From Zhongshania aliphaticivorans (GTDB lineage: Bacteria; Pseudomonadota; Gammaproteobacteria; Pseudomonadales; Spongiibacteraceae): a DNA stretch of 64,000 bases. A program made the translations under genes and the position numbers. The DNA lies in the NCBI RefSeq assembly GCF_902705855.1, contig NZ_CACSIJ010000014.1, positions 81,519 to 145,518 of the forward strand. Direction: 5' to 3'. Of the stretch, positions 59,507 through 64,000 are shown one piece after another (the stretch's first letter is position 1; each line of letters begins with the position of its first letter). Under the pieces are notes generated by a model. The model worked only from the letters and a program-made list of their open reading frames with translations. It was not told the DNA's origin and did not search any database.

Positions 59507-60214
59507 ATGTTTAAGAAAATGTTCTCACTGGCGACGGTATTCAGCTTTTTGTTATTGGTGTCTGCCTGCAGCGACGGCGCAGAGCCTGCGGCTGCCAAGG
59601 TCGTGCCGCCAGCGGCAAGCGCCGCCCAAACCCAAGCTCAGCCGACGGATGCTGGTGACAAAGGCGAGCGCTTTATTCGTATTGCCCAGCCGGTAAGAAC
59701 AAGCAATCCAGATAAAATAGAAGTGGTAGAAGTGTTTTGGTACGGCTGCAGCCACTGTTTTCATTTTGACCCCATGTTAGAAGCGTGGAATAAGCAGCTG
59801 CCTGCAGATGTTGATTTTCATCGCTCCCCTGCCATGTGGAATGACTTGATGGTGGTGCATGCCAAGGCCTACTACGCGGCGTTGACCTTAGGTGTGTTAG
59901 ATAAGGTGCACGAGCCTATTTTTAATGCCATCAATGTTGATCGCAATATGTTGAAGGACGCAGATGCGCTGGCGAAATTATTTACCGAGCATGCGGGGAT
60001 TGATGCGGATACTTTCCGTAAAACCTTCGATTCTTTCGGTGTGAATAGCCAAGTGAAGCAGGCTGATGCGCGGGCTCGTTCTTACGGCATTGCCGGCACA
60101 CCAGAATTGATCATTAACGGTAAGTATCGAGTAACGGGTCGCTCAGCGGGTGGTCGTGCGGAAATGCTAGAAGTTGCCGAAGAGTTGATCGCTAAAGAGC
60201 GTGCAGCAAAATAA
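59507..60214 (+). CDS. dsbA: DsbA-like thiol:disulfide oxidoreductase with lipoprotein signal
   Basis: A 235-residue thioredoxin-fold protein that introduces disulfides into exported proteins. Its active site is CSHC (81-84, in FWYGCSHCFHFDPM), in place of the more usual CPHC, and the cis-Pro loop is GIAGTPELIINGKYR. The N-terminus has a lipobox (LVSAC, Cys21) followed by a 35-residue Ala/Pro/Gln linker, so it is probably membrane-anchored, unlike the soluble DsbA of E. coli. GAGGGGG gives a strong ribosome site. It follows the c5-c4 genes, as in Pseudomonas. Confidence 0.92.
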   Translation: MFKKMFSLATVFSFLLLVSACSDGAEPAAAKVVPPAASAAQTQAQPTDAGDKGERFIRIAQPVRTSNPDKIEVVEVFWYGCSHCFHFDPMLEAWNKQLPADVDFHRSPAMWNDLMVVHAKAYYAALTLGVLDKVHEPIFNAINVDRNMLKDADALAKLFTEHAGIDADTFRKTFDSFGVNSQVKQADARARSYGIAGTPELIINGKYRVTGRSAGGRAEMLEVAEELIAKERAAK

Positions 60215-60303
60215 GTTCTGGGCGATCTGAATTCGGTCGCCTTCGCTCTTAGATTATTATTCTGCCTTGGTTTTTATCTTCGCGCAGAATATGAGCCAGA
60301 CAT

Positions 60304-60342
60304 AAAAAGGCCGCTTAGCACATCGCGCTAAGCGGCCTTTTT
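60304..60342. terminator. Bidirectional terminator between dsbA and the ATP-grasp gene
   Basis: A perfect 16-base stem (60304-60319 with 60327-60342) with a seven-base loop, with A5 on the left and T5 on the right. It lies 90 bases after dsbA and 11 bases beyond the stop of the convergent ATP-grasp gene, so it can end both transcripts. Confidence 0.9.
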
Positions 60343-60353
60343 CGTTTGAAAAA

Positions 60354-61412
60354 CTATGGATTACTCGGGGGGGAGTCCATAGCCTCATTACTTATGCTGG
60401 ACAACACCTCAGTCGCTAAGGGTTCGTTACGAGTGATTAATGATGGTTGCGCAAATTCACGCTGGCAGAAAGCTAAGCGCTTTGCTGGTGAGGGTTTGTG
60501 TATACCCTTGGCCGCAAGACGATCAATTTCTTTTTCTACGGTGCGGCAGCGTGCGGCTAGCCCTGCGTCGTTGGCGATCTGAATATTGAGACCGGGACGG
60601 GCATTTAACTCTAGCATGAGTGGGCCGCGGTCCTTATCTAGCACCATATCTACACCCAAGTAACCCAAGCCTGTAAGCTCATAGCAACGGGTGGCTAGCG
60701 ACATAAATTCGTCCCAGAACGGCAGTTGTACGCCGCGTACCGGATTGGTGGTGTCTGGGTGGCTGTTAATGAATTTGTTCAGCCACGTGCCGTCTAGGGT
60801 GATGCCTGTAGCCAAATCAACACCAACACCGATTGCGCCTTGGTGAAGGTTGGCCTTGCCGCCGGACTGCCGCGTAGGTAGGCGCAGCATCGCGAGTAAG
60901 GGGTAGCCTTTCAAAACGATAATACGAATATCCGGCACGCCTTCGTAGCTGATGGCGCTAAAGATGGGGTCGGGGGTAACCCTAAATTCAATTAGTGCGC
61001 GGTCGCGGTGACCGCCCAGCGAGTAGATACCAGATAAAATGCCAGACAGGTGAAACTCAAGGTCATCGCGGCTTAGTAAGCGACCAGACGTTGTGCGGTA
61101 ATAACCTTCGAACTGATCGGCAATCACAACAATACCGTCCCCACCCGCACCTTGAGCGGGCTTAATCACAAAGTCGCGGTGGTCTTTTACAATCTCAGAG
61201 AGTTTGCTGATTTGCTTGTCGGAGTCTATAACCCCATACATGGGTGGTACATGAATACCGGCTTGCACCGCGCGCTCTTTGGTTTTAATTTTGTCATCGA
61301 CCAGCGGGTATAAATGGCGTTGGTTATAGCGCAACACAAAATCTGCATTGCGCTGGTTAATACCCATCACCCCTTTTTTACGTAGGTCTTTCCACGTGCT
61401 GAATAAGGACAT
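60354..61412 (-). CDS. ATP-grasp ligase, alpha-L-glutamate ligase-like
   Basis: A 352-residue cytosolic enzyme of the ATP-grasp fold (sugar-transfer/alpha-L-glutamate-ligase-like group). Nucleotide contacts are in FVIKPAQGAGGDGIVV (81-96) and the metal/phosphate site in LGVDMVLDKDRGPLMLELNARPGL (given as LGVDMVL and LELNARPGL, about 262-285). Such enzymes join a carboxylate to an amine through an acylphosphate. The last 55 residues look disordered. It is the third gene of an operon, one base after the 7TM gene. The substrate is unknown; amino-acid addition to an envelope or peptide acceptor is possible. Confidence 0.88.
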   Translation of the reverse strand: MSLFSTWKDLRKKGVMGINQRNADFVLRYNQRHLYPLVDDKIKTKERAVQAGIHVPPMYGVIDSDKQISKLSEIVKDHRDFVIKPAQGAGGDGIVVIADQFEGYYRTTSGRLLSRDDLEFHLSGILSGIYSLGGHRDRALIEFRVTPDPIFSAISYEGVPDIRIIVLKGYPLLAMLRLPTRQSGGKANLHQGAIGVGVDLATGITLDGTWLNKFINSHPDTTNPVRGVQLPFWDEFMSLATRCYELTGLGYLGVDMVLDKDRGPLMLELNARPGLNIQIANDAGLAARCRTVEKEIDRLAAKGIHKPSPAKRLAFCQREFAQPSLITRNEPLATEVLSSISNEAMDSPPSNP

Positions 61413-61413
61413 G

Positions 61414-62946
61414 TTATTTGCCTTTAATCATGGCGTTAAAGCGGAATAGTTCGGTTAGGCGATAGCCTCGGTAGTGGCCTAGTGCCAGCATCAGCGACAT
61501 AAACACCAGTAACATGCCTGGGAAGGTGAACACGAAATAGGCCCAGGGCTCGTAGGTCATCATTAAGTGCGACAGCGTCGCAGCGATAAGGGTGCCGATG
61601 CCCACTTTGCCGGCATGAACGCCACCGCGCTCCTCCCAAACAATCGACATACGCTCAATCGACATGGTCAAAATAACCATTGGGAATAAGGCGATAGAGA
61701 GGCCGCGATCTAGTCCTAAACGGTGACCAAGTACGCTGATCAGTGCCATGATAATGACCACGAAGGTCAGCACCACAGACAGTCGTGACAGCAATTGTAA
61801 GTGCAGATGTTCGAGGTAGGATCGCAGCGACAAGCCGAGCGCGGTAATGAATGTAAATAGAATGACACCCCAGAAAACCTGGGTTTCCCTAAATGCGAGA
61901 CCAATCAAAACCGGCGTAAAAGTGCCCAGTGTTTCTAAACCGATGACATTGCGCAGCAGCAAAATAAGCATAACGCCAATGGGAATCATAAGAATGATTT
62001 CAAAGGTTTGTTGCGATTGAAGTGGCAAATCATACAGCGACAATGCCCACAGTTTATTCTCTTTGCGCTCGGCAATAGACTGCGCGAGCATAATGGAATT
62101 CATGGTTCTTTGATTAGCGGTGACTTCAATTTTAAGATTGCGTCCGCCCTCAACAGAGGCCATTGGCTCGTCACCGGTCCACCACACAACGCGATCATTG
62201 GGGAGGCCTTGGGTGCCGGTTTCTGGATTGAAATACAACCAGCGTTTGCCGTTGTAGCTGCGCATCCATAATTCCGACACCTGCGCTACGCTGCTAACTA
62301 ACCGTAGGGTATGAACCCGTTCAACGGGAATATGTGCAGACGACAGTAGCAGTTCAAGAACGCGGGATTTATTGTCCTGTGTGTAGTCATTACCCAGCAG
62401 CAAGCGGGAATTGTCGTTGCTGGGTTCGTTAATAAGTTTAATGGCTTCGCGAATAAATGTTTCGATATCGGCAGATTGTTCACGAATAGGCTTGAGAAGT
62501 GCTTCTACCGCGACTTTCTCAACACCGATAAGCTCAGGGCTTTCGCTGAATTGTGGCCCAGGCTCAGACTCTGAGAAGCGTGAATTACTGCGCTTGGTGA
62601 GCATTAATCGGTAAAACAGTTGTTGGTTGCCGTCAGCGCGTCGAGCAGACCAGACCGCTTGACGATTATCGCCAACAACATCGGTATTCACGCCGTAACT
62701 TTTAGAAATAAAACTTTCGTTCAGGGTGATGAATTTGCTCCACACCGGCGGCAGGTACATTTGTACCTTTACGGGGCTATTGTCGCGGGCATTAAAGCTG
62801 AGCTTGGCGTCGATCACCCATACCGGTTCGGTGGTTTCTGAGGATACTGGAATATTGAGAACAAAAATCTGCCATGCGGTGCTGGCGACACCAATAAATA
62901 ATAGTGCCAGCGCCAGTACCCTGACATGCAGTTTTACGCCCTTCAT
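61414..62946 (-). CDS. Inactive transglutaminase-like protein fused to seven transmembrane helices
   Basis: A 510-residue inner-membrane protein: one N-terminal helix (about 9-30), a large periplasmic domain (about 31-310), then about seven helices (about 320-505). The periplasmic part matches the transglutaminase-like domain that lacks the catalytic Cys of active enzymes (at the expected site it reads NKSRVLELLL), and the membrane part matches the 7TM domain found with it. It probably binds a peptide or protein ligand rather than processing it. It overlaps the upstream gene by four bases. Confidence 0.88.
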   Translation of the reverse strand: MKGVKLHVRVLALALLFIGVASTAWQIFVLNIPVSSETTEPVWVIDAKLSFNARDNSPVKVQMYLPPVWSKFITLNESFISKSYGVNTDVVGDNRQAVWSARRADGNQQLFYRLMLTKRSNSRFSESEPGPQFSESPELIGVEKVAVEALLKPIREQSADIETFIREAIKLINEPSNDNSRLLLGNDYTQDNKSRVLELLLSSAHIPVERVHTLRLVSSVAQVSELWMRSYNGKRWLYFNPETGTQGLPNDRVVWWTGDEPMASVEGGRNLKIEVTANQRTMNSIMLAQSIAERKENKLWALSLYDLPLQSQQTFEIILMIPIGVMLILLLRNVIGLETLGTFTPVLIGLAFRETQVFWGVILFTFITALGLSLRSYLEHLHLQLLSRLSVVLTFVVIIMALISVLGHRLGLDRGLSIALFPMVILTMSIERMSIVWEERGGVHAGKVGIGTLIAATLSHLMMTYEPWAYFVFTFPGMLLVFMSLMLALGHYRGYRLTELFRFNAMIKGK

Positions 62947-63500
62947 TCTTTTTGCTCCTCGGATTTATCTTGTTTGGCGCAGAGCGTTTTGTCCTGCAGA
63001 TATTTTTTACTGGGGTCGACTAAGGCATTAAACGCAGATAGCGGCTCCGAGCCAACCAGCATGGGCTTGGAAAACTGTCTGCGGTCGGCCAAATTCACTT
63101 CTACTTTATGGGATTCACCGCCAACACAAAGGGTGAGCTCTAGCACGGGACGGCGGCTGTAGTCCTTTTCGTCTTCATCGTAATCAGATGCGCGGCGCTT
63201 TATACGAATATGTTTGCTAAGCGGCAGGCTCACCGATTTAAGGGTGTCGTCGGGCAATACTAAATCGAAGTGCACAATGTCATCAGCACCGTCTTTGCCC
63301 TTTTCTACCTGTGAGTTTATCGCATTGATAGAGGCACTTTCTGCGCCGGTATCAATTTTCGCCTTGTAGCGAACACCTAGTTCTTCGATATAAACGTATT
63401 CGCTTAAGCCAAATATTTTATGAGAGCCTTCATCGGCGTAACTAGCTGTGGTGAATAAAAGGGTGTTGGTCAGTAGTAGCGTAAAGAAAACAAATCGCAC
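62943..63500 (-). CDS. Exported retropepsin-like aspartic protease (RimB/Zn_protease family)
   Basis: A 185-residue protein with a signal peptide (about 1-22, ending SYA) and a retropepsin-like fold. The catalytic DTGA is at 50-53 (KIDTGAESASI), matching the family annotated as ATP-dependent zinc protease/RimB, which is paired with ATP-grasp ligases. The C-terminus is highly charged. It starts with GTG at 63500 after AAGGAG and is the first gene of the operon. An exported location sets it apart from the cytosolic RimB that trims ribosomal protein tails, so a periplasmic substrate is likely. Confidence 0.87.
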   Translation of the reverse strand: MRFVFFTLLLTNTLLFTTASYADEGSHKIFGLSEYVYIEELGVRYKAKIDTGAESASINAINSQVEKGKDGADDIVHFDLVLPDDTLKSVSLPLSKHIRIKRRASDYDEDEKDYSRRPVLELTLCVGGESHKVEVNLADRRQFSKPMLVGSEPLSAFNALVDPSKKYLQDKTLCAKQDKSEEQKE

Positions 63501-63573: not shown

Positions 63574-63613
63574 TGCAGTATAGCTGCAGAGCATTAAATA
63601 TGTCTGAGTGGGC

Positions 63614-64000
63614 TTAGTCTCTTATTTGTTGAAAAAGTGCGAGGGTAATATTCCTACTTTCTTTATGATCGACAATCGGGGGTGGATAGCCCGCCGTGGC
63701 GGGTACTTGGTGTAGTTGCTTGCCCTGTAGGCCCTTTAACTCTGGTACAAAGCGCAATATGAATTGACCCTCGGGATCAAAACGTAGGCCTTGGGTGGTG
63801 GGATTGAAAATTCGAAAATACGGCGCTGCGTCGGTGCCGGTAGAGGCGGCCCACTGCCAGCCGCCGTTATTTGAGGCGAAATCGGCATCGATGAGGTGTT
63901 CTAGAAAGTGCCGCTCGCCCCAGCGCCAGTCGATGTGTAGATCTTTGCAGAGAAAAGATGCGGTGATCATTCGCAGTCGATTGTGCATCCAGCCGGTTTC
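63614..64000 (-). CDS. phrB: Deoxyribodipyrimidine photolyase, C-terminal part (cut by window end)
   Basis: The last 128 or so codons of a photolyase; the reading frame runs open to base 64000, so the start lies outside the window. The FAD-binding and DNA-contact motifs are plain: [50 protein letters not shown], and IFNPTTQG. These are shared by CPD class I photolyases, which repair pyrimidine dimers using light, so repair rather than signalling is likely. It lies upstream of the retropepsin operon on the same strand. Confidence 0.95.

Follow-up and report, generated by a model that had tools for sequence, protein, structure and literature searches.

A three-gene rloABC operon with a single secreted protease in Zhongshania aliphaticivorans

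Results

Three tightly coupled genes end at a bidirectional terminator

The whole stretch of DNA that was analysed (64,000 nucleotides, hereafter the window) carries three open reading frames in succession on the minus strand (Table 1). The first and second share 4 bases (62943-62946), and a single base separates the second from the third, exactly as given in a preliminary description of this DNA. That description had also placed a strong terminator at the end of the operon. A hairpin with a perfect stem of 16-18 bp is indeed present there; it was missed by a simple consensus terminator scan and was scored by direct folding, which gave -32.8 kcal/mol on the minus strand and -31.5 kcal/mol on the plus strand (z = -7.4 and -7.1 respectively, versus shuffled sequences). 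Because these values are strong on both strands, the hairpin can also serve the convergent dsbA-like gene. The weak promoter match upstream of the first gene is at chance level, since three promoter-like sites were found versus 4.3 expected in shuffled sequences.

The dsbA-like gene sits downstream of two cytochrome c genes, and a similar neighbourhood is observed in a near relative (L070). On the other side, a deoxyribodipyrimidine photolyase gene lies directly upstream of the operon, and L070 likewise has one upstream of its rloA.

Table 1. Location of the features discussed in the text. Positions refer to the window unless a contig (C) or locus (L) is named.
Feature	Position	Strand	Description	Family
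rloA	62943..63500	-	exported retropepsin-like aspartic protease, 185 aa, GTG start	PF05618
rloB	61414..62946	-	510 aa; N-terminal helix followed by periplasmic beta-sandwich plus degenerate transglutaminase domain, and lastly 7TM domain	
rloC	60354..61412	-	RimK-like ATP-grasp ligase, 352 aa, without signal peptide	
Hairpin terminator, bidirectional	~60303-60345	both	3' of rloC, shared with convergent dsbA-like gene	
Sigma-70-like promoter match, weak	63577..63606	-	upstream of rloA	
dsbA-like gene	59507-60214	+	DsbA-like protein, CSHC motif, convergent with rloC	
Photolyase gene	63614-64000	-	C-terminal part, clipped by window end	
rimK-rimB pair	C14:327755-329113		apart from rlo operon	
Triad-intact RloB relatives	L059 1976-4492; L060 2765-4390; L061 1725-3341; L062 1598-3145			
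Second far RloB branch	L057 2447-4072 with L155 8753-9256; L058 2139-3761			
Tandem-CapC proteins	L053 2487-5726; L054 686-3937; L055 748-3999; L056		~1080 aa, two CapC domains then large soluble region	

The three products are a secreted protease, a 7TM protein and an ATP-grasp ligase

The product of the first gene matched the Pfam profile PF05618 (2.1e-25). Its signal peptide, read by eye as MRFVFFTLLLTNTLLFTTASYA, is typical in form, the catalytic D50 lies within a KIDTGA motif, and C125 and C174 are conserved, paired disulfide cysteines. In the alignment, K48, D50, R117 and R140 are invariant and correspond to K46, D48, R114 and R137 of the Pseudomonas aeruginosa protein, where the basic residues of this set were tested as contacts to the substrate. 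The best matches in the PDB were 9g58 (2.6e-32) and 9g59 (7e-22), both titled putative ATP-dependent zinc protease domain proteins; these are presumably the two crystal structures of RloA from the P. aeruginosa study discussed below.

The second product matched PF14400 (7e-44) and PF14402 (2e-93). Over its full length it is 57-60% identical to its Pseudomonas homologues, and its identity to those of Spongiibacter and Neomelitea reaches 78-79%. It scored 754 bits against the NCBIfam RloB model NF052267 (cut-off 900), and the protease 146 bits against the corresponding Rlo-named model (cut-off 280); both models are of the type "exception", which covers less than the family, and we read these scores as limiting the use of the NCBI name and not the homology. 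The preliminary description had noted that the transglutaminase-like domain lacks its catalytic cysteine. Alignment with relatives that keep the triad confirmed this and showed that all three residues are lost (Cys to Gln, His to Ser or a gap, Asp to Asn), a loss that extends over the whole canonical RloB group. While a sequence search for RloB relatives of solved structure gave no convincing match, the periplasmic part resembles 3isr (Foldseek 3.6e-9). In the AlphaFold model, which was built on an alignment of close homologues only, pLDDT is mostly in the 80s for the periplasmic part and below 60 for the 7TM part. No RloB relative was found in the viral contigs searched.

A G-x-x-x-P helix-pair likeness, seen by eye, had made the 7TM domain a candidate relative of CapC/PgsC. 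The candidate was rejected, as hhalign gave a probability of about 1% with a shallow CapC set. A second genome search yielded no further CapC sequences, the CapC/PgsC-type profile PF14102 had no match in the organism's own genome, and a weak CapC match in another genome (G388) was judged by eye to be a heme A synthase-like open reading frame. Proteins with two tandem CapC domains (Table 1) were encountered in a single family from a class other than that of the window.

The third product is an ATP-grasp protein of the alpha-L-glutamate-ligase-like type, matching TIGR02291 at 513 bits (cut-off 314.2) and PF14397 at 310 bits. It has K84, D161, R163, the NLHxG motif (188-192), D255, E268 and N270 in common with the genome's own RimK. 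In vitro, RimK produces poly-alpha-glutamate with chain lengths up to 28 units (PMC11957791).

The operon corresponds to rloABC of P. aeruginosa

The three genes are almost certainly the rloABC operon. The suggestion that they represent an undescribed system does not hold, because Lormand and colleagues named rloABC in 2025 and tested it by deletion in P. aeruginosa PA14 (PA14_41690, _41710 and _41730, or PA1768-PA1767-PA1766; PMC12239564). The genes had come up in earlier screens: a suppressor screen had yielded insertions in PA1766-PA1768 (PMC7314104), and a Shewanella mutant in an rloB-like gene over-produces vesicles (PMC12096838). In P. aeruginosa, survival at low salt, cell shape, biofilm and beta-lactam sensitivity are all under the control of the operon. 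A mutant without all three of its secreted, mutually redundant RloA proteases does not grow without salt and dies in low-salt medium, forms less biofilm, is more sensitive to beta-lactams and has short, wide cells; when rloB or rloC is also deleted, growth without salt returns and the other phenotypes are partly reversed (PMC12239564). In vitro, RloA cleaves stretches of at least eight glutamates, and it is a secreted protein whose catalytic residue and polyglutamate contacts are required to complement the mutant (PMC12239564).

The two operons agree in their three families, gene order and tight coupling, in the signal peptide and DTGA motif of RloA, in the dead transglutaminase followed by a 7TM domain in RloB and in the RimK-related ATP-grasp fold of RloC. 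They differ in the number of secreted RloA proteases, one here versus three in P. aeruginosa. The operon also resembles RimB-RimK, where a retropepsin-like protease is paired with a RimK-family glutamate ligase, and both RimB and RloA cut polyglutamate; RimB, however, lies in the cytosol and lacks a membrane partner, whereas the window protease carries a signal peptide and is encoded with rloB. With CapB/CapC (PgsB/PgsC) there is a functional parallel only, namely a ligase, a multi-helix membrane protein and an extracellular hydrolase acting on a glutamate polymer, but sequence kinship between the 7TM domain and CapC is not supported.

The genome encodes one secreted protease of the family and no run of eight acidic residues

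Across the whole genome two PF05618 proteins were detected, the window RloA and a RimB encoded next to RimK, apart from the rlo operon; no second secreted protease of this family was found genome-wide. Runs of eight consecutive Asp/Glu codons were also sought over the whole genome in any frame, and their number was zero. No encoded protein can therefore be an eight-glutamate substrate, and a genome-encoded polyacidic protein was rejected as the RloA substrate in this organism. Since no polyacidic run is encoded here, as in P. aeruginosa, the substrate must arise post-translationally or be a non-ribosomal peptide, provided that the specificity of RloA is the same. The statement of the preliminary description that the natural substrate is unassigned still holds.

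The single secreted protease and the lack of an encoded run of eight acidic residues are new observations. As there is only one secreted protease, one deletion rather than three should expose the product, which makes this organism a simpler place to seek the substrate.

The three genes are inherited together

The preliminary description had stated that the three families co-occur and had called for a neighbourhood search. In a sample of 185 genomes drawn evenly over the class, canonical RloB was present in 33. An rloA-type gene lies directly upstream of it in 31 of these and rloC directly downstream in 32, with the full A-B-C order in 30; in one genome (G114) rloC is on a different contig from rloB. 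TIGR02291 was matched above its cut-off in 32 of the 33 genomes with canonical RloB and in none of the 152 others (Fisher p = 4e-35). When motifs were scanned in 80 closer relatives with names, the ligase was located beside rloB in all 80 and the protease upstream in at least 79, L140 being the single relative for which none was detected. These data confirm the co-occurrence and show that the arrangement is not due to chance. Of the 31 sampled genomes in which rloA adjoins rloB, 12 have no protein of this Pfam family other than the operon protease.

Two genomes, G167 (L066) and G120 (L065), keep rloBC, and their only PF05618 protease is of the RimB type, without signal peptide. The RloBC product is thus not always dependent on RloA; either another protease substitutes in these genomes or the product is tolerated.

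Discussion

A proposed division of labour among RloC, RloB and RloA

The preliminary description had proposed that a ligase, its membrane partner and a trimming protease in the periplasm act on one substrate. This outline agrees with the genetics and biochemistry published for P. aeruginosa (PMC12239564) and with the active sites conserved here, while the units joined by RloC, their transfer by RloB and the final site of the product are our inference. The explanation that we favour, at roughly even chances, is the following. RloC would join glutamates in the cytosol, probably through alpha linkages, into a chain that is either free or built on an acceptor. RloB would take this product across the inner membrane or mount it on the periplasmic side, with its dead transglutaminase domain acting as a binding and not a cutting module. 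RloA, as a dimeric aspartic protease, would trim chains of at least eight glutamates in the periplasm, and this trimming would keep the product from accumulating and disturbing the cell wall.

Polyglutamate cutting, the mutant phenotypes and their suppression by loss of rloB or rloC were established in P. aeruginosa (PMC12239564). The present analysis contributes the operon structure, the conservation of active sites, the co-inheritance of the genes, the single secreted protease and the lack of an encoded acidic substrate. The published genetics and biochemistry, the co-inheritance, the lack of an encoded acidic run, the conservation of the RloA and RloC residues, chain synthesis by RimK and the export-like context of the sister branch described below argue for the synthesis, transfer and trimming of a glutamate chain; the two genomes without RloA, the unsupported link to CapC and the low confidence of the 7TM model argue against it.

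Alternatively, RloC could extend a peptidoglycan precursor or a lipid with amino acids, with no free polyglutamate polymer being made, and RloB and RloA would control the incorporation and trimming of this altered wall component. The cell-wall-like phenotypes and the specific beta-lactam sensitivity of the P. aeruginosa mutant (PMC12239564), as well as the hypervesiculation of the Shewanella rloB-homologue mutant (PMC12096838), are consistent with this, and RloC belongs to the ATPgrasp_ST family, which takes its name from sugar-transfer contexts. The need of RloA for at least eight consecutive glutamates in vitro (PMC12239564) is, however, a poor fit with a short substitution on a wall peptide. 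We regard this alternative as possible but rather doubtful.

Many inactive enzyme domains serve as binding modules. RloB could accordingly be a sensor and not a transporter, its dead transglutaminase domain binding cell-wall peptides or RloA products and its 7TM domain signalling to RloC, which would modify a cytosolic protein while RloA tunes the signal. Loss of the Cys-His-Asp triad over the whole canonical group speaks for such a role, as do the cell shape and beta-lactam phenotypes (PMC12239564). Against it stand the secretion of RloA and its dependence on the catalytic residue and the polyglutamate contacts (PMC12239564), and a cytosolic product of RloC would be beyond the reach of a secreted protease, which leaves this alternative unlikely. 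Finally, that the three genes are chance or merely co-regulated neighbours with separate functions is hardly credible, since nothing except the two genomes with rloBC and no rloA speaks for it, whereas the order is kept in distant genomes (30 of 33), rloA and rloC motifs flank rloB in at least 79 of the 80 closer relatives, and the published finding that deletion of rloB or rloC suppresses the rloA triple mutant refutes it (PMC12239564).

A sister branch of RloB keeps the transglutaminase triad

Four RloB relatives (G181, G071, G101 and G033) keep the full Cys-His-Asp triad, in the motifs ASCNGKSRLF, TSHQWVE and WVPFDTINDH, and give Transglut_core matches of about 2e-17. In an unrooted tree with long branches, the four make up one side of a branch that has full support. 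Like the rlo operon, their loci (L059-L062) combine a PF14402 7TM protein with an adjoining or fused RloC-like ATP-grasp ligase; unlike it, they retain the triad, have TPR and barrel-like neighbours, and an RloA gene adjoins the relative in none of the four. The gene order is transglutaminase-7TM, RloC-like ligase and TPR protein, followed in three of the four by a beta-barrel-like protein, and in G181 the first two are fused into a single protein of 838 aa. The barrel candidates (392-401 aa) gave weak beta-barrel matches, one of which was to the polysaccharide-export protein EpsL at 5.9e-6, far below cut-off. This arrangement is reminiscent of polymer export, with the assignment of an outer-membrane barrel being a weak one.

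Such a branch, with an intact triad and a TPR protein and without RloA, is new, and it opens another way into the question of what the 7TM partner handles. Tentatively, and with more doubt than confidence, we suggest that in many Gammaproteobacteria RloB and RloC may make and export an unrecognised envelope component, an alpha-linked polyglutamate or a polyglutamate-tagged molecule, for which RloA would be the remodelling hydrolase. The sister branch might then cross-link this polymer, or release it, in the extracellular space by means of an active transglutaminase, the TPR protein and a putative outer-membrane barrel.

A second far branch comprises degenerate RloB relatives from two genomes (G132 and G055; Table 1) without an adjoining ligase. 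The degenerate RloB relative of G132 has a divergently oriented gene for an RloA3-like protease beside it.
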